From: Gammaproteobacteria bacterium
GTDB taxonomy: Bacteria > Pseudomonadota > Gammaproteobacteria > Steroidobacterales > Steroidobacteraceae
NCBI GenBank assembly: GCA_004297335.1
Contig: SCUD01000171.1
Location: 1-64,000, forward strand
Reading direction: 5' to 3'
DNA length: 64,000 nt
Within the stretch, counting starts at the first letter, position 1, and the number at the start of each line of letters is the position of its first letter. The notes below the pieces were generated by a model. That model saw nothing but the letters and a program-made list of their open reading frames with translations. It was not told the origin of the DNA and made no database searches. The translations under genes and the position numbers were made by a program. Of the stretch, positions 10,475 to 59,574 are shown in pieces.

Positions 10475-13936
<3,462 letters not shown>

Positions 13937-14917
13937 TCAGTGGCCATGCTCGGCCGCGCCTTTGCCGAGCTCCGCCTTGAGGATAAAGCTGTTGGCGGCC
14001 GCATAGGTCTCGCCAGGCTCGATGCCCGTTAGAACCTCGGCGATCTCGCCATCGCTGCGACCGACCTGCACGGTTCTGGCCTCGAATCCTTCCGCGTTTT
14101 GTACGAACACGACGGTCCGGTCCTCGATTGTCTGCAGTGCCTCGCTGCGCACCGCAAGCGGTACCGAGGTAGTCGCCAGTGTCAGTTCCGCGGTCACGTA
14201 GAGACCGGGCGGCCACCTGCGGTTCGCGTTGTCGAGCAACACCCGCGCAGTGAGCGTCTGGCTGGTGCTGCTGCCAAATGGCGCCACGTAGACCACGTTG
14301 CCGTCCGCATTCAGGGTGCTATCGGCGCCCCAGACGCGGACCGCCTGCCCGACCCGGACCTCGGCGATATCGCGCGGAAACAGCGCCAGTTCTACCCAGA
14401 CTGTCGACAGGTCGGCGACCGCAAGCAGCGCCTTGTCGCCGGTGTTCTCGCCCGGGTTGGCATTGCGCCCAGTGATCACTCCGCTGAGCGGCGAGGTCAC
14501 CACATAGGTCTGCAGGCTTTCGTTACTCTCGACCGTCGCGAGCGTCTCGCCCTGCCGCACGGTATCGCCAACACGCTTCGTGATGTTACGAATGACTCCC
14601 GGAAATCGTGCCGTCACATCGCGGACGCGCTCAGCGTTTGGGGCGATCACGCCGTAAAGCGTCTGTCGCTCGCGCACGCTGGCTGGCCCCGCGCTGGCGA
14701 TGCCGATCCGTGCGCTCGAGATCTGTTCCGGTGTCAGCTCGACCCGGTTGGCATTGTCTTCGCCCTCGCCTGCTGCGTGACTCTCGTCGGCGTACGCTTC
14801 CGGGGGCCCACCTCGCGGACCGGCGGATGGTTCGCCGCCGCATGCGGAGAGCATGATCACAATCAGTGTCACCAGGATGGGGGCCGTTCGTTTCATGGCA
14901 TCTCGCCTCGAGTTCAT
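13937..14917 (-). CDS. czcB: Periplasmic adaptor of the metal RND pump (lipoprotein)
   Basis: Membrane-fusion protein (326 aa) linking CzcA to CzcC. A lipoprotein signal with lipobox LSAC (about residue 26) anchors it to the inner membrane. A barrel-sandwich/biotinyl-like segment follows (GVIRNITKRVGDTVRQGETLATVES), then a beta-barrel and a C-terminal membrane-proximal domain. The C-terminus ends EHGH. The ATG at 14917 overlaps the czcC stop as ATGA, which supports it over an inner ATG at 14896. Confidence 0.92.
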   Translation of the reverse strand: MNSRRDAMKRTAPILVTLIVIMLSACGGEPSAGPRGGPPEAYADESHAAGEGEDNANRVELTPEQISSARIGIASAGPASVRERQTLYGVIAPNAERVRDVTARFPGVIRNITKRVGDTVRQGETLATVESNESLQTYVVTSPLSGVITGRNANPGENTGDKALLAVADLSTVWVELALFPRDIAEVRVGQAVRVWGADSTLNADGNVVYVAPFGSSTSQTLTARVLLDNANRRWPPGLYVTAELTLATTSVPLAVRSEALQTIEDRTVVFVQNAEGFEARTVQVGRSDGEIAEVLTGIEPGETYAAANSFILKAELGKGAAEHGH

Positions 14918-16227
14918 GGCAGTTCGAGTCCAAGTGTTTCGTTGGTCAGGCGCTCTATCTCGGCGAGCAGGCGGTGGTAGTCCGCCGCCGCGTCGATGAT
15001 CGCGGCGCGCAGGTCGAGCAGTTCCTGTTGCGCGGTCGCAAGTTCGAGATACGAGAAGCGGCCGCGGTCGTAGCCGTATTGAGTCTGCTCCAGGGCCTGC
15101 TGCGCCTCCGCCAGCGCGCCGCTGCGCAGGGTCTCGACGCGAGCGCCCGTCGCGATCAGCTCCTGATACAGGGCGAACACGGTCGCCCGGGCCCGTGTCA
15201 GGGCCGCCTGCCGCTGCGCGTCCGTCTGTGCTCGGAGCATCTCCGCCTCGCGGATTCCACCCTGATTGCGGTCCGACAGCGGCAGCGGCATCGAAAAACC
15301 CACGACGAGCGCCAAGTCCTTCCCCTCTTCAAGGCGCCGCATGCCGAGGCCGAATACGATATTCGGGCGCGCCTGCGCACGAGCCAAGCGCAGCTCGGCA
15401 TCCCGCAGCCGCGCCTCGGACGCAAAGCGCAGGTAGTCAGGGTTTCCTTCCAGCGCCGCAAGCAAGGCTTCCAGCGGTTTGACCGGCCGGAGGGTCAGGA
15501 GATCGCCGCTCGCCTCGGTGAAGCCCGGGTGCTGGCTGCCCCAGAGTGCCGCCAGCACCTGGCGCGCGGCGCGCATCGCGCTTTCAGCCTGCTGCACTTC
15601 TACGCGCGCACGGGTTAGCGCAATGCTGGCGCGGCTGAGCTCGGCTTCCGGCGATCGCGCTGCCTGCACCCGAATCGCGACGGCCTCGAGCGTGCGCTGC
15701 GCGATCGCGCTCGTCATCGCGGCGAGTGCCACACGGTCCTGAGCGGCGACGAGCGCGATGAACCGACGGGTCACTTCGACGAGCACATCCAGTTCCTGCG
15801 CCTGGCGTTCGACTCCCAGCAGATCGCGGTCCATCAAGGCAAGGTCTGAGCGCAGCCGGCGCTTGCCACCCAGTTCGACCACCTGGCTCAGGCTGAGTGT
15901 ACTTTCGAGGCCGTCGATTCCCTGCAGGACGCCGCTGCCAGCAAAGTTCTCGATCTCGACTGATAACTCCGGATTTGGCCGCAGCTGTGCCTGCATGATG
16001 CGCGCTGCAGCGGCCTTGAGCGTGAAGCTGCTGGCCGCGAGGTCCGGATTCCGGGCAAGCGTTGCTGCGACTGCCGCTTCGAGTGTCAGAACTCCCGCCG
16101 GATCGTCACCCTGTGCCGTATTGTGGCGTGGCTCCGCTGCTACGGCGAGGGTCAGGAATGACAACACGGCGATCAAGCCAAGGATGCCGGCACGCCCCGC
16201 GAAGGGGCGCACGGAAAAGACGCGCAT
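14914..16227 (-). CDS. czcC: Outer-membrane factor of the metal RND pump (TolC family)
   Basis: TolC-like outer-membrane channel (437 aa) with an N-terminal signal peptide (GILGLIAVLSFLTLAVAA) and two repeated coiled-coil/outer-membrane-efflux domains. LTLEAAVAATLARNPDL and the later LGMRRLEEGKDLALVVGFSMPLP-type segment are characteristic. Together with czcB and czcA it forms the full trans-envelope pump. A 71-nt gap separates it from the upstream small exported protein gene. Confidence 0.92.
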   Translation of the reverse strand: MRVFSVRPFAGRAGILGLIAVLSFLTLAVAAEPRHNTAQGDDPAGVLTLEAAVAATLARNPDLAASSFTLKAAAARIMQAQLRPNPELSVEIENFAGSGVLQGIDGLESTLSLSQVVELGGKRRLRSDLALMDRDLLGVERQAQELDVLVEVTRRFIALVAAQDRVALAAMTSAIAQRTLEAVAIRVQAARSPEAELSRASIALTRARVEVQQAESAMRAARQVLAALWGSQHPGFTEASGDLLTLRPVKPLEALLAALEGNPDYLRFASEARLRDAELRLARAQARPNIVFGLGMRRLEEGKDLALVVGFSMPLPLSDRNQGGIREAEMLRAQTDAQRQAALTRARATVFALYQELIATGARVETLRSGALAEAQQALEQTQYGYDRGRFSYLELATAQQELLDLRAAIIDAAADYHRLLAEIERLTNETLGLELP

Positions 16228-54899: not shown

Positions 54900-55005
54900 T
54901 CCTCGAGGGGGGCGGCATTGTAGCCGATGCCGCGGTCACCGATCGCCCCCACAGGGGTGTGGCATACTCGTCACGAATCGGAGGGGTTCCGGCAGCTGGG
55001 GTCGG

Positions 55006-57396
55006 ATGGCATTTTTTGGTGCATATCGTGCAGATCGCCTGATCGCTGAAGTGCGCGAGCATGGCGAGGCCGACAGCCCGCGAGCGCGACAGGCGCTCGC
55101 CCGGCTGCAAAAGCTCGGCGCGGCAGCGATCGGGCCGATCGTCGACGCCCTCGCGACGGCGGACAAGCGGGAGACGCTGGCCTTCGTCGATGTCCTTTCG
55201 GGCCTGGTCGACAACCGGACTTTCCCGGCGCTGGCCCGCGCCCTCACTGGCGAAAACCCGCGCGCAGTCGCCGGGGTTGCCTGGGCACTGTCGTCTTCGC
55301 GCAACTTCCAGCCGACCCTGCTGTTCGACCTGCTCAGCGAACCGGGCATGTCGCGCCCCGCCGTTCTCGAGATCATCGCCGCGCACAAGTCCCGCCTGCC
55401 GCTGCGGGACCTGCTGAACGCTGCCTACCTGCAGGAGCCGACCGAAAAGGCCGCGCTGTTCCGCATCGCCGGGGAACTGGTGGACCAGAGTTCCGTCGAT
55501 GAGCTGATTGCCCGCGTCGAGGGCAAGGACCCGGTCGCGCGCATGCACATCATCGCCCTGCTCGCGCGCTTCAATTCGCCGCGCGTGCGGGCAGCGCTGC
55601 AGGCAACGCTGCGGGACCCGAACAAGCTGGTGCGGGCCTCGGCGTTGCGGGCGATCGCCGCGATGGATGGCCCGGTCAATCCTGCGGAGGTCACCCCGCT
55701 GCTGCGCGATCAGGACCTCGAGATCCAGGGACTCGCCGTCGACGTCCTGTGCAAGAGCCGCCACCCGGACACGGTGCACCACCTGGTAGCCGTGCTGAAG
55801 GACGAGTCCGAGTTCGTCCGGCGCGCCGCCGTCGAGGTACTGAACGAGGTCGGTGACGAAAGCTCCGTGAAGCACCTGCTGCAGTCCATCCGTGATGATG
55901 ACTGGTGGGTGCGCAGCCGGGCCGCAGATGCACTCGGCAAGATCGGCGGGCCCAAGGTGATCAACGCCGCCCTCGCGCTGGTATCCGACCGCGACGATGA
56001 GGTCCGACGCACCGCAATCGAAATCCTGAACCAGACCCGCGACGAGCGCGCGGTCAGTCACCTGCTCGAGGCGACCCGGGACCCGGACTGGTGGGTCAGC
56101 GAACGCGCCGTCGACGCGCTCGGGGCCATCGGCAGCCGGAAAGCGGTCCCGCGGCTGACCGAGATGCTGCAGACCAATCCGCGCTCGGTCGCGAGCGTCG
56201 TCCGGGCCCTGGGGCGCATCGGCGACAGCACGGCGCTGGACGGCGTGCTCGGTGCCCTCGACCGCCCGGAGTCCGACGTGCGCATCGAGGCGCTCGGAGC
56301 GCTGTCGCGCCTTGCCGACGACCGCTCGGTGGACCCGATCCGGGCCAAGATCCTGGCGCTGGCCGGTGCCGCCGACCAGTCCGTCGCCAGCGCCGCACAG
56401 CGCTCGCTGACCGAGCTGGAAAACCGCTTCGGCCCGACGACACTGACCATGGCGCCGGTCATCCCCGGCGCCAGCGCCGGGACGGACGCCAGCCGGACGA
56501 TGCTGATCGAGTCGGCCGACGTCTCGGCGATCATGAAATCCTCCGAGTCCCAGGGCCGCCTGGACATCGCCACGCTGAAGAGCGGCGACATACTCGACGG
56601 GCGCTACCGGTACATCGAGCGCATCGGCAAGGGCGCCTTCGGTACCGTGCTGCTGATGGAGGACACGGTCGTCGGCGAGCGCCTGGTGCTCAAGTTCCTG
56701 AATCCGACCATCGCGCAGGATGAGGAGATGATGCAGCGCTTCGTCCACGAGCTGCGCTACAGCCGCAAGATCACCCACCCGAACGTGATCCGGATCTACG
56801 ATTTCCTGCACATCCGCGGCAACTACGCGATCTCGATGGAGTATTTCGCGTCGCATACGCTTGGGGCCGAAGTGGCCGACGGCAAACCGATGGCGCTGCG
56901 CCGGGCGATCCGCTTCGGCATGGACATCGCCCGTGGCATGGCCGTCGCCCATGTGGCCGGCATCGTGCACCGGGACCTCAAGCCGGCCAACGTCCTGATC
57001 GACAATGAGGGGCTGCTCAAGATCGTCGATTTCGGCGTCGCCGCGGCCCAGCACCAGGGTGACACGCAGCTGACCAAGACCGGTTACGTGATCGGTTCCC
57101 CCAAGTACATGGCGCCCGAGCAGATCCTCGGCAAGAAGGTCGACGAGCGCGCCGACATCTATTCGCTCGGCATCATGCTCTACGAGATGCTGACCGGCAC
57201 GCCGCCCTATCACCGCGGCGACCACATGTCGGTCATGTACCAGCACGTCCAGGGCCGGGCCCGCCCGCCGATCGAGCTGAACCCGGCGCTGCCGCAGGCC
57301 CTGTCCGACCTGGTGATGAAGGCGATTGCCGTCGACAAGGAAAAACGTTTTGCGTCCATGGATGAGCTGCATATGGCGCTCGAGCGCTTCTTGTGA
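55006..57396 (+). CDS. HEAT-repeat / Ser-Thr protein kinase fusion
   Basis: A 796-aa cytosolic protein. Residues about 20-475 are HEAT/PBS-lyase repeats (for example DDDWWVRSRAADALGKIGGP at 297-316 and DPDWWVSERAVDALGAIGS at 359-377). A Ser/Thr-rich linker (about 476-530) leads to a Hanks-type kinase at 535-796: GKGAFGTV (541-548), Lys563, HRDLKPAN (655-662), DFG (675-677) and APE (703-705). The kinase looks catalytically complete. It has no membrane segment. It lies 15 nt before two PilT-type genes, so control of pilus retraction is a reasonable inference. Confidence 0.9.
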   Translation: MAFFGAYRADRLIAEVREHGEADSPRARQALARLQKLGAAAIGPIVDALATADKRETLAFVDVLSGLVDNRTFPALARALTGENPRAVAGVAWALSSSRNFQPTLLFDLLSEPGMSRPAVLEIIAAHKSRLPLRDLLNAAYLQEPTEKAALFRIAGELVDQSSVDELIARVEGKDPVARMHIIALLARFNSPRVRAALQATLRDPNKLVRASALRAIAAMDGPVNPAEVTPLLRDQDLEIQGLAVDVLCKSRHPDTVHHLVAVLKDESEFVRRAAVEVLNEVGDESSVKHLLQSIRDDDWWVRSRAADALGKIGGPKVINAALALVSDRDDEVRRTAIEILNQTRDERAVSHLLEATRDPDWWVSERAVDALGAIGSRKAVPRLTEMLQTNPRSVASVVRALGRIGDSTALDGVLGALDRPESDVRIEALGALSRLADDRSVDPIRAKILALAGAADQSVASAAQRSLTELENRFGPTTLTMAPVIPGASAGTDASRTMLIESADVSAIMKSSESQGRLDIATLKSGDILDGRYRYIERIGKGAFGTVLLMEDTVVGERLVLKFLNPTIAQDEEMMQRFVHELRYSRKITHPNVIRIYDFLHIRGNYAISMEYFASHTLGAEVADGKPMALRRAIRFGMDIARGMAVAHVAGIVHRDLKPANVLIDNEGLLKIVDFGVAAAQHQGDTQLTKTGYVIGSPKYMAPEQILGKKVDERADIYSLGIMLYEMLTGTPPYHRGDHMSVMYQHVQGRARPPIELNPALPQALSDLVMKAIAVDKEKRFASMDELHMALERFL

Positions 57397-57411
57397 TTCA
57401 CTCCCGCGCCG

Positions 57412-58503
57412 ATGCCACGCATTGATGCCTTCCTGAAGCTCGGAACCAGCCAGTCTTGTTCTGACCTGCATCTGGCGGTCGGGGTACCCCCGATGCTGCG
57501 CATGAACGGCGACCTGGTGCCGATCCGTTTCCGCGATCTCGCCGGGGCGGAGCTCGAGAGCTACGTCAACGAGATCCTGACCCGGAACCTGGCCGACCGC
57601 TTCCGGGCCGGCCATGACGTCGACTTTTCCTACGTCTCCGAGGACGGCGGCCGCTTCCGGGTCAACGTCTTCCGCAAGGACTCCGGCGTCGGCGCGGTGT
57701 TCCGCGCGATCCCGGCCGAGGTGCCGTCGCTCGACTCGCTGCAGCTGCCCGCGGTGGTGAAATCGCTGTGTGACCACCACCAGGGCATGATCCTGGTCAC
57801 CGGCTCGACCGGCACCGGCAAGTCGACGACGCTCGCGGCGATGATCGACCTGCTGAACCGGACCCGCAGCCTCAACATCATCAGCCTCGAGGACCCGATC
57901 GAGTTCGTGCACCGCAGCAAGAAGAGCCAGGTCATCCAGCGCGAACTCGGCACCCACCTGCCCACCTTTGCCGAGGGCGTGCGGGCGGCAATGCGCGAGG
58001 ATCCGGACGTCATCCTGGTCGGCGAGCTGCGCGACGCCGAGACCATCTCGATGGCGATGACTGCGGCCGAGACTGGCCACCTCGTACTTGGCACGCTGCA
58101 CACGACCAGTGCGGTCAAGACCATGGACCGGATGATCGACGCCCTGCCGGCCGATGAACGCGAGCAGACCAAGGGCTTTCTCGCCCAGAGCCTGATCGCC
58201 GTGATCACCCAGGTCCTGGTACGCCGGCCCGAGAATCGCGGTCGCCGGGCCGTCTGCGAAATCATGGTGATGAACCGGGCGATCGCCAAGCTGATCCAGA
58301 CCGACCAGACGCACCAGATTCCGGCCCAGCTGCAGACCGGTCGCGACACCGGCATGCAGCTTCTCGACCAGGCGCTGCTGGCCGCCATCCGGGCGCGCGA
58401 GATCGATCCCGACGATGCCTATGCCTACGCGACGGACAAGCGGCTGTTCGTGCGTCACGTCATCGATCGCAGCCTGTTGCCGCGCTTCGACGCGCAGGGT
58501 TGA
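57412..58503 (+). CDS. PilT-type retraction ATPase (first copy)
   Basis: A 363-aa type IV pilus twitching ATPase. The N-terminal PAS-like domain has SDLHLAVGVPPMLRMNGDL. Walker A is [15 protein letters not shown] (from about residue 130), the Asp box is [10 protein letters not shown] and Walker B is [34 protein letters not shown] is the His box region. It resembles PilT more than PilU. The usual C-terminal AIRNLI-type membrane-contact motif is replaced here by AIAKLIQT. Probable operon with the kinase and the second copy. Confidence 0.9.
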   Translation: MPRIDAFLKLGTSQSCSDLHLAVGVPPMLRMNGDLVPIRFRDLAGAELESYVNEILTRNLADRFRAGHDVDFSYVSEDGGRFRVNVFRKDSGVGAVFRAIPAEVPSLDSLQLPAVVKSLCDHHQGMILVTGSTGTGKSTTLAAMIDLLNRTRSLNIISLEDPIEFVHRSKKSQVIQRELGTHLPTFAEGVRAAMREDPDVILVGELRDAETISMAMTAAETGHLVLGTLHTTSAVKTMDRMIDALPADEREQTKGFLAQSLIAVITQVLVRRPENRGRRAVCEIMVMNRAIAKLIQTDQTHQIPAQLQTGRDTGMQLLDQALLAAIRAREIDPDDAYAYATDKRLFVRHVIDRSLLPRFDAQG

Positions 58504-58512
58504 GCCGCAGCG

Positions 58513-59574
58513 ATGGCGCGCATCGACGAATATCTCGAGGAAGTCCTCCGGCGCGAGGGTTCGGACCTGCATTTCATGGCCGGCGACCCGCCGCGCATCC
58601 GCCAATGGGGCCTGCTGTCGGCGCTGCGCGCCGAACCGCTGGCCGCCGATTTCGTCCACGATGCGCTGTATGAGATCCTGCCGCGCAAGGCGCTCGACCG
58701 CTTCGAATCCCGTGACGGCACCGACTTCGCGTACGCCCTCGGCGACCAGGCCCGCTTCCGCGTCAACGTGCTGCGCCAGCTGAACGGCATGGGCGCCGTG
58801 TTCCGCGCGATCCCGTCGCGGGCCATGACCCTCGAGCAGCTGAAGATGCCGGACGCGGTGCGCAACCTGTGCAAGGTCTCGAACGGACTGATCCTGGTGA
58901 CCGGCAAGACCGGCTCCGGCAAGTCGACCACGCTCGCCGCGATGATCGATGACCTCAACGCGCGGCTGCGCGGCCACATCCTGACGATCGAGGATCCGAT
59001 CGAATTCGTGCATCCGCGCAAGAACTGCCTGGTCAGCCAGCGCGAGGTCGGCGTGCACGCCGAGTCCTTCTCGAGCGCACTGCTGTCGGCGCTGCGCGAG
59101 GATCCGGACGTCATCCTGGTCGGCGAGCTGCGCGACCTCGAGACCATCAGCACCGCGATCACCGCGGCCGAGATGGGCATCCTGGTCATGGCGACGCTGC
59201 ACACCAACGGCTCGGCGGCCACCGTGGACCGCATCGTCAACGCCTTCCCGGCCGACAAGCAGAGCCATGTGCGCACGATGCTGTCGACCTCGCTGCGCGG
59301 GGTGATCTCGCAGCAGCTGGTTCCGCGCAAGGGGGCTGCCGGTCGGGTCGCCGCACTCGAGGTGCTGCTGAATACGCCGGCAGTGGCCAACCTGATCCGC
59401 CAGGGCAAGATCGACCAGCTCGAGAACGCGATGCAGTCCGGTGGGACCCTCGGCATGCGCACGATGGACAGCGCGATCGCACAGCTGCTCGAGCAGGGCG
59501 TCATCAGCGGCCGCTCGGCGTTCGAGAAGGCGATCAACAAGGCCCGTTTCGAGGAGGGCCGCAATCTCGACTGA
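58513..59574 (+). CDS. PilT-type retraction ATPase (second copy)
   Basis: A 353-aa paralogue, 9 nt after the first. The N-terminus is [18 protein letters not shown]. Walker A is [15 protein letters not shown], the Asp box [13 protein letters not shown], Walker [16 protein letters not shown] and the His box [15 protein letters not shown]. The segment [20 protein letters not shown] matches the PilT-like C-terminus well. The two copies differ enough to suggest separate or hetero-oligomeric roles. No pilin or assembly genes are in the window. Confidence 0.9.

Follow-up and report, generated by a model that had tools for sequence, protein, structure and literature searches.

A HEAT-repeat Hanks-type kinase gene is conserved as a unit with two genes for predicted PilT-family ATPases

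We examined a three-gene unit in a 64,000-nucleotide stretch of DNA from a Gammaproteobacteria bacterium (assembly GCA_004297335.1, contig SCUD01000171.1), referred to here as the window. The unit encodes a HEAT-repeat Hanks-type kinase (HK) and two predicted PilT-family ATPases (T1 and T2). We observed that the pairing of HK with T1 and T2 is real, old and conserved well past the window's order, Steroidobacterales, and that the three genes lie side by side, are inherited together and, where missing, are mostly missing together. The unit is apparently undescribed: a search of openly licensed papers on kinase units tied to PilT/PilU or twitching found no description of HK-T1-T2. A sequence-only reading of the window had singled out the locus as a candidate regulatory system, and the conservation past the order makes a dedicated regulatory unit the best interpretation. 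The same reading had described a 796-residue protein with HEAT repeats and a complete C-terminal Hanks kinase, followed after 15 and 9 nucleotides by two PilT-like genes, and the coordinates, Pfam and NCBIfam agree with this description.

Conservation of the unit beyond the order

We searched a sample of 369 genomes of the class with cut-offs of E ≤1e-60 for HK and E ≤1e-102 for T1 (class-wide counts were made for these two genes, and the presence of T2 is known from the loci that were fetched). HK was present in 51 of the 369 genomes and T1 in 46, five of each being from the window's order, and the T1-bearing genomes spanned 24 families. At these cut-offs, none of the 369 genomes carried T1 without HK. 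A search for HEAT kinases next to pilT in other genomes had been suggested by the sequence-only reading, which had named a lack of conservation in relatives as the finding that would speak against it. In 42 of the 46 T1 genomes, T1 was the gene immediately downstream of HK and, as the pairing is conserved beyond the order, this objection has failed. The four genomes (G) that showed no direct adjacency were G242, which is split at contig ends (loci L175 and L176), G355, which is fragmented, and G220 and G421. In the last two, HK and T1-T2 were on different contigs, with at least 2.3 kb after HK and at least 3 kb before T1, and the genes have therefore been kept without close linkage.

In 26 out-of-order loci (L110-L135), HK and T1 were contiguous and on the same strand in all 26, and the start of T2 came next in 25; in L126, T2 would fall past the end of the sequence stretch examined. 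The apbC gene, which is the upstream neighbour of HK in the window, was not found within the 1.5-kb flanks of any of these 26 loci. The recurrent neighbours outside the order fell into several sets, read as rib-nusB-thiL-pgpA (L149, L154, L178), ilvE (L156, L157, L159, L171) and others. A phylum sample returned 1 of 398 genomes, which was the window's own. The rows listed from it were all class members, and the distribution beyond the class is therefore poorly sampled. Among plasmids, T1 had no match at 1e-100.

Conservation within the order

For the order itself, we compared the best 80 of 263 relatives' loci (the near loci). T1 followed HK in 74 of the 80 and T2 followed in 70. The contig ended within 105 nucleotides in five of the six near loci without T1, and 449-1124 nucleotides past HK in four further near loci without T2. 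The apbC gene was divergent and upstream of HK in 80/80 near loci; as the whole neighbourhood is conserved inside the order, in-order linkage proves little alone.

A T1-clade match was obtained in 50 of the 59 order genomes searched. Seven order genomes (G004, G017, G035, G040, G046, G047 and G054) had no HK or only a remnant of it, and these had no T1-clade match. G001, which is 75% complete, had a piece of HK and no T1-clade match, while in G013 HK sits on a contig apparently matching L106, where T1 is cut off. The unit is carried by Steroidobacter gossypii (L068), Peristeroidobacter soli (L067), P. agariperforans (L076) and Povalibacter uvarum (L042), environmental bacteria that are in culture and are not known as pathogens.

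T1 and T2 as specialised members of the PilT/PilU family

T1 and T2 are predicted to be PilT/PilU family ATPases on the basis of score and motifs. With NCBIfam TIGR01420 (PilT/PilU family), they scored 414 and 436 bits respectively against a cut-off of 319; both matched Pfam T2SSE, and their best structural matches were solved PilT chains. The Walker A, Asp box, Walker B and His box motifs were each kept in 97-98 of 98 T1 and 91-93 of 93 T2 proteins, and Walker A together with the GE-L/M/I-R box in all 98 and all 93. Both are apparently active ATPases.

The sequence-only reading had called them two PilT-like retraction motors. Both are indeed of the PilT family; however, neither is PilT or PilU. 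We built a tree of 156 PilT-family proteins that held no named reference, so that its group labels are our own; the label canonical PilT rests on the motif AIRNLIRE plus, in the window's genome, the yggS neighbour. The groups were T1 (37 rows, support 1.0), T2 (36, 0.999), canonical PilT-type (35, 0.83) and PilU-type (48, 1.0). The PilU-type group was split from the other three with a support of 0.998, T1 and T2 branching with canonical PilT, and the order among T1, T2 and PilT was left open, T1 and T2 as sisters having a support of only 0.519. The T2 genes of L161 and L163 carried the label canonical from a threshold, were placed inside the T2 clade by the tree and were relabelled. Exact AIRNLIRE was present in 35/35 canonical PilT, and in 0/98 T1, 0/93 T2 and 0/48 PilU-type proteins. 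According to the accessible part of a published study, PilT shows high conservation of this motif whereas PilU lacks it, and a coupling role is suggested for it (PMC6762196). We therefore rejected T1 and T2 as PilT proper, since they form their own clades and have AIRNLIRE replaced, and T2 as PilU, since it falls outside the PilU-type clade, the motifs also being against it. On the same two grounds, the term retraction motor is an assumption.

Five genes of the window's genome exceed the PilT/PilU family cut-off. Besides T1 and T2, these are three tandem genes on contig C95 (L144 6506-9885) next to a yggS-family gene. The tandem comprises one canonical PilT-type gene and two of the PilU-type group. 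Another pilT-type locus in the genome, which the sequence-only reading had proposed to look for, is thus present. PilB was found on C112 (839 bits, cut-off 676). Because C95 holds this further tandem, with PilB on C112, T1 and T2 are extra to the canonical set. A canonical-type PilT was also found elsewhere in 19/19 out-of-order module-bearing genomes queried, and for 14 of these the tree put it within the canonical clade; 13 further genomes queried for canonical PilT had no T1-clade match. Judged from their sequences, T1 and T2 are specialised paralogues beside the canonical PilT set. They share with PilT/PilU of type IVa pili the family score above the cut-off, the motifs for ATP binding and hydrolysis and the arrangement as two tandem genes, but differ in their separate clades, in the replaced motif, in being additional and in the kinase gene that precedes them.

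Two positions of T2, S175 and T259, were Ser/Thr in all 93 T2 rows and are Asn and Glu in canonical PilT. We rejected such clade-specific Ser/Thr as phosphosite candidates; the T1 positions reached only 91-92%, and the signal is too weak for naming any site.

HK as a soluble kinase with a HEAT arm

HK is apparently an active Hanks-type Ser/Thr kinase with a complete kinase domain. Pfam matched HEAT_2 (4.3e-51) and, over residues 534-786, Pkinase (4.5e-52), and only HEAT-type and kinase domains were found. Alignments of HK comprised 117 rows, i.e. the window, the 80 near loci and 36 far ones, with three of the far rows repeating genomes (G156, G124 and G102). The kinase motifs (Lys, HRDxKPxN, DFG/DYG, APE/SPE) were intact in 81/81 near rows and 36/37 far rows, the exception being L169. 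Among the far rows, Ser replaces the last Gly of the Gly loop in five and DYG occurs in one. The strict HRD pattern was kept in 28/37 far rows, and the remainder, bar L169, differ only at the residue preceding Asn. The DWW residues of the HEAT arm are fixed like the catalytic site (Table 1), which suggests that a presumably exposed HEAT surface serves a fixed partner, whose putative identity is taken up below.

No transmembrane stretch was found in HK, the top 19-residue hydropathy being 1.18. An AlphaFold model had helices at residues 2-475, a linker at residues 478-516 with a predicted local distance difference test score (pLDDT) <50 and the kinase domain up to ~793. As the alignment behind it was shallow (44 sequences; mean pLDDT 77, predicted template modelling score 0.49) and parts of the kinase domain were <50, only the domain plan was taken from the model. 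When the whole model was submitted to Foldseek, the 50 matches listed were all kinases, with PknB first, and none was for the HEAT arm.

Other assignments of HK were rejected. As a PASTA kinase (PknB/Stk1 type) it scored 281.6 bits where 450 are required, the match being limited to residues 527-795; no PASTA family was among the Pfam matches, and the transmembrane stretch was lacking. For PD-T4-6 and other PADLOC defence kinases, the best 25 of 36 family matches covered residues 513-796 only. A longer open reading frame (ORF) for HK, from 54859 (845 residues), overlaps apbC; the orthologue alignment begins at the ATG at 55006, and M1 was invariant in 44 rows.

A fuller module in other lineages

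When we compared 25 out-of-order loci with wide flanks, recurrent neighbours were seen that go beyond what the window alone shows, namely a protein family that we call X, and PP2C, FHA, HD-GYP and cyclase proteins. X is a family of ~155 amino acids directly 5' of HK with the motifs LWVHPEG ... MDGS ... DYLN ... VNKSYI (alignment A1), present in L148-L153, L155-L160, L162, L163, L169, L170, L175 and L177-L183. Of two members compared with Pfam, one gave a marginal match to DUF6812 over 33 residues (29.8 bits, cut-off 27.1) and the other gave none. Using a search model that drew on 18 of the loci it then counted, we found X in 36/369 class genomes, all of them HK-positive; in 34, X is the gene immediately 5' of HK. 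Outside the order, X thus accompanies HK in 36 of 46 genomes. The order itself had X in 0 of the 59 genomes searched, with the class search as positive control.

FHA proteins were encoded 3' of T2 in 15 loci (L150, L151, L153, L155, L160-L163, L176, L177, L179-L183). A segment EPTMF followed the FHA domain in 15 of the 17 proteins of the FHA cluster, with two copies each in L150 and L177; the FHA model was built before this count and without two of the 17 members (L180 and the distal gene in L153). Upstream of HK, we found PP2C in L150, L160, L163, L175, L177, L179, L180 and L183, and an FHA-GAF-HD-GYP protein in six loci (L150, L151, L155, L177, L181, L182), while a cyclase-FHA protein lay downstream in three (L148, L149, L154). 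Pfam confirmed the FHA, GAF, HD, PP2C and cyclase domains on representatives. As the models for the FHA, PP2C, HD-GYP and cyclase proteins were built from the same loci, these counts are descriptive and give no independent test.

In the window, no PP2C or FHA gene was found using models of the relatives' proteins. The window's genome had six FHA matches and two PP2C matches, all on other contigs. A second Hanks kinase, PP2C and FHA stand in a row on C45 (L190 8073-10669), and C51 (L192 6747-8339) encodes a cyclase-FHA protein related to those in L148, L149 and L154. The window's order keeps together only the core of the module, with FHA and PP2C encoded elsewhere.

Comparison with known systems

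The PpkA-PppA-Fha phospho-switch has a role in type VI secretion. It comprises a Hanks kinase, a PP2C and an FHA protein, and the same three kinds stand beside HK in several other lineages; HK, however, is soluble with HEAT repeats, and the machine parts of its unit are PilT-family ATPases. Pseudomonas aeruginosa PppA, PpkA and FHA-1 are named together in a table within the consulted part of a review (PMC6213207). We rejected the window locus as a switch of this type, as the window has neither PP2C nor FHA next to HK.

We know of no PilT-type motors in the archaellum regulatory network. In Sulfolobus, the eukaryotic-type kinases ArnC and ArnD take part in the control of archaellum expression, the filament being type IV pilus-like, as described in the available portion of PMC5300886. 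They influence motility through such a filament, the feature they share with HK as proposed here, but they are archaeal and act on expression. In P. aeruginosa, deletion of stk1 weakened or abolished twitching, for which the authors proposed phosphorylation of pilus proteins, and lowered the pilus-related proteins fimU, pilV, pilW, pilY1, pilF, pilD and amrZ (PMC8560001, from the sections at hand). Stk1 thus resembles HK as a Ser/Thr kinase tied to twitching, but its effect is on the amounts of pilus-related proteins, and PilT is not mentioned in the text. Normal motility and thick pili in Synechocystis depend on the kinase SpkA, also eukaryotic-type and tied to pili; it differs in acting on pilA expression, and its substrate is given as not determined in the same partial text of the review (PMC6213207). 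By analogy, HK-T1-T2 can be placed in a known kind of arrangement, a Hanks kinase module beside a surface machine.

Proposed working of the unit and alternatives

We consider it an even chance that HK-T1-T2 works as a module dedicated to signalling and motor action, in which a HEAT-docked cytosolic kinase acts on two specialised PilT-family ATPases. The invariant DWWV pairs would let the HEAT arm dock on T1/T2 or on a shared partner at the pilus base, and the kinase domain would phosphorylate T1/T2 or this partner. Phosphorylation may then engage, disengage or retune a second motor pair, with T1/T2 presumably working as hexamers and pilus retraction as the probable output; PP2C would take the phosphate off and the FHA proteins would read it. 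More tentatively, and as a possibility rather than a likelihood, we propose that the fuller set is a widespread and so far undescribed phospho-signalling engine of type IV pili. It would consist of HK bound to T1/T2, a PP2C eraser, EPTMF-bearing FHA readers, X and HD-GYP/cyclase outputs, and in it Ser/Thr phosphorylation would couple the motor state with second messengers, instead of or beside Pil-Chp. In our judgement, the regulation of pilus retraction and the reason for surplus PilT paralogues are open questions, and both can be tested in cultured carriers. Were HK to act on the motors, phosphorylation would switch a pilus motor directly; were the motors to act on HK, the unit would offer the cell a way of sensing surfaces.

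Several observations weigh against a dedicated unit or narrow its reach. L095, a locus from the same family as the window, carries HK followed by 3.1 kb that contain neither T1 nor T2; this is either a true exception or an assembly error. The HK-T1 gap inside the order ranged from 2 to 341 nucleotides (between match ends), so a single transcript is not certain everywhere. In G004 (L147, G004:C18, 7861-8903), HK residues 1-182 abut T2 residues 182-350; this looks like one deletion, and co-loss is therefore not always two events. The Fisher value for co-occurrence of HK and T1 was 2e-53, a value that ignores relatedness. HK was without T1 in 5 of the 51 class genomes (G211, G321, G416, G340 and G367). 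The first three of these carry HK-like kinases of 24-32% identity, in two copies in G321 and G416; these copies (L164-L168) lack T1 and X, the four whole ones keep the motifs, and one in each genome adjoins a gene read as clpB (L164, L165, L168). G340 (L169) has X, with the kinase half of HK failing to align, and in G367 the HK locus stops at a contig end. Across 36 loci, the evolutionary distances of HK tracked those of apbC (0.83) far above those of T1 (0.31) and T2 (0.34); residual correlations were weak both for HK-T1 (0.19) and for HK-T2 (0.23). We therefore rejected mirror-tree coupling of HK with T1/T2, as there was no clear signal and apbC tracked it most closely. Lastly, as X is absent from the order, what holds for the fuller module cannot be carried over to the window.

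The main rival is a reverse flow, from motor to second messengers, which we regard as somewhat unlikely. Here the load or nucleotide state of T1/T2, sensed by the HEAT arm, would switch HK, and FHA, FHA-HD-GYP and cyclase-FHA proteins would relay the signal to cyclic di-GMP and cyclic AMP, giving surface sensing. As HK has no transmembrane stretch and only HEAT-type and kinase domains, input would enter via the HEAT arm. The six loci with FHA-GAF-HD-GYP beside HK, the three with cyclase-FHA downstream and the homologue of the latter elsewhere in the window's genome (L192) are in favour of this flow, but the output genes adjoin just some of the loci, and the models used detected none in the window. 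That T1/T2, still regulated by HK, serve a role other than retraction, in type II secretion, in a competence filament or away from filaments altogether, we hold to be unlikely. The replacement of AIRNLIRE throughout both clades would fit such a role, as would the presence of a canonical-type PilT in the 19 genomes queried, the GspD-GspE-GspF set of the window's genome (type II GspE on C90, 678 bits, cut-off 630) and the absence of pilin and pil genes among the window proteins scanned, a scan that covered part of the window. However, T1 and T2 score well over the PilT/PilU cut-off, match solved PilT chains best and branch with canonical PilT, not PilU, and PilU too lacks AIRNLIRE yet drives retraction with PilT, according to the accessible part of PMC6762196. 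Finally, we regard it as very unlikely that the substrates of HK are unrelated to T1-T2 and that a common transcript is all that joins them. This would agree with the HK-like kinases that lack T1, with HK alone in L095 and with the distance analysis, but T1 was never without HK in the 369 genomes at the cut-offs used, and the gene order is kept amid changing neighbours, with co-retention even when the genes are unlinked.

Locus and neighbouring genes

The window comprises bases 1-64000 of contig C30 in an assembly of 4.0 Mb and 187 contigs, and the nearest named matches of HK are from Steroidobacteraceae. All three genes are on the forward strand, with HK starting at the ATG at 55006 (Table 1). 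The divergent apbC was assigned by family scan; a metG-like gene 55 nucleotides after T2 was identified by reading, without a family scan.

Table 1. Features of the HK-T1-T2 locus, in window coordinates
Feature	Position	Strand	Basis
HK, soluble HEAT-repeat Hanks-type Ser/Thr kinase, 796 aa (amino acids)	55006..57396	+	ORF, NCBIfam, Pfam, AlphaFold, hydropathy
HEAT solenoid, HK residues 1-475	55006..56430	+	Pfam HEAT_2; model helices 2-475
First tryptophan-pair motif DDDWWV, HK 297-302	55894..55911	+	D297, D299, W300, W301 identical 117/117; role putative
Second tryptophan-pair motif DPDWWV, HK 359-364, 62 residues later	56080..56097	+	D359, D361, W362, W363 identical 117/117; role putative
Kinase domain, HK 527-793	56584..57384	+	Gly loop, K563, HRDLKPAN, DFG, APE
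T690, activation segment, candidate autophosphorylation site	57073..57075	+	Thr 117/117; role putative
T1, PilT-family ATPase of separate clade, 363 aa	57412..58503	+	Family scans, tree, motifs
AIAKLIQT replacing PilT AIRNLIRE, T1	58279..58302	+	Motif comparison
T2, second PilT-family ATPase of separate clade, not PilU, 353 aa	58513..59574	+	Family scans, tree, motifs
AVANLIRQ replacing PilT AIRNLIRE, T2	59380..59403	+	Motif comparison
Divergent gap apbC (-) / HK, 106 nt (nucleotides), presumed operon promoter	54900..55005	.	Position only

We also observed that dcd, upstream of HK and matched in 69 loci, is interrupted in 16 of them by in-frame stop-free inserts of ~0.6-1.8 kb, located at two sites (L033, L035, L049, L050, L060, L074, L075, L077, L080, L083, L086, L087, L088, L090, L094 and L101). 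The inserts start with Cys, and their last residue, Asn (often preceded by His), is followed by Cys or Ser; they look like inteins in dCTP deaminase. The window's own dcd aligned without an insert.

Elsewhere in the window, at 10778-16227 on the reverse strand, there is a metal efflux transporter of the CusA/CzcA type (resistance-nodulation-division family; 1532 bits, over its cut-off) together with two further genes, whose matches to the metal-exporter subunits IhpB and IhpA fall short of the respective cut-offs.

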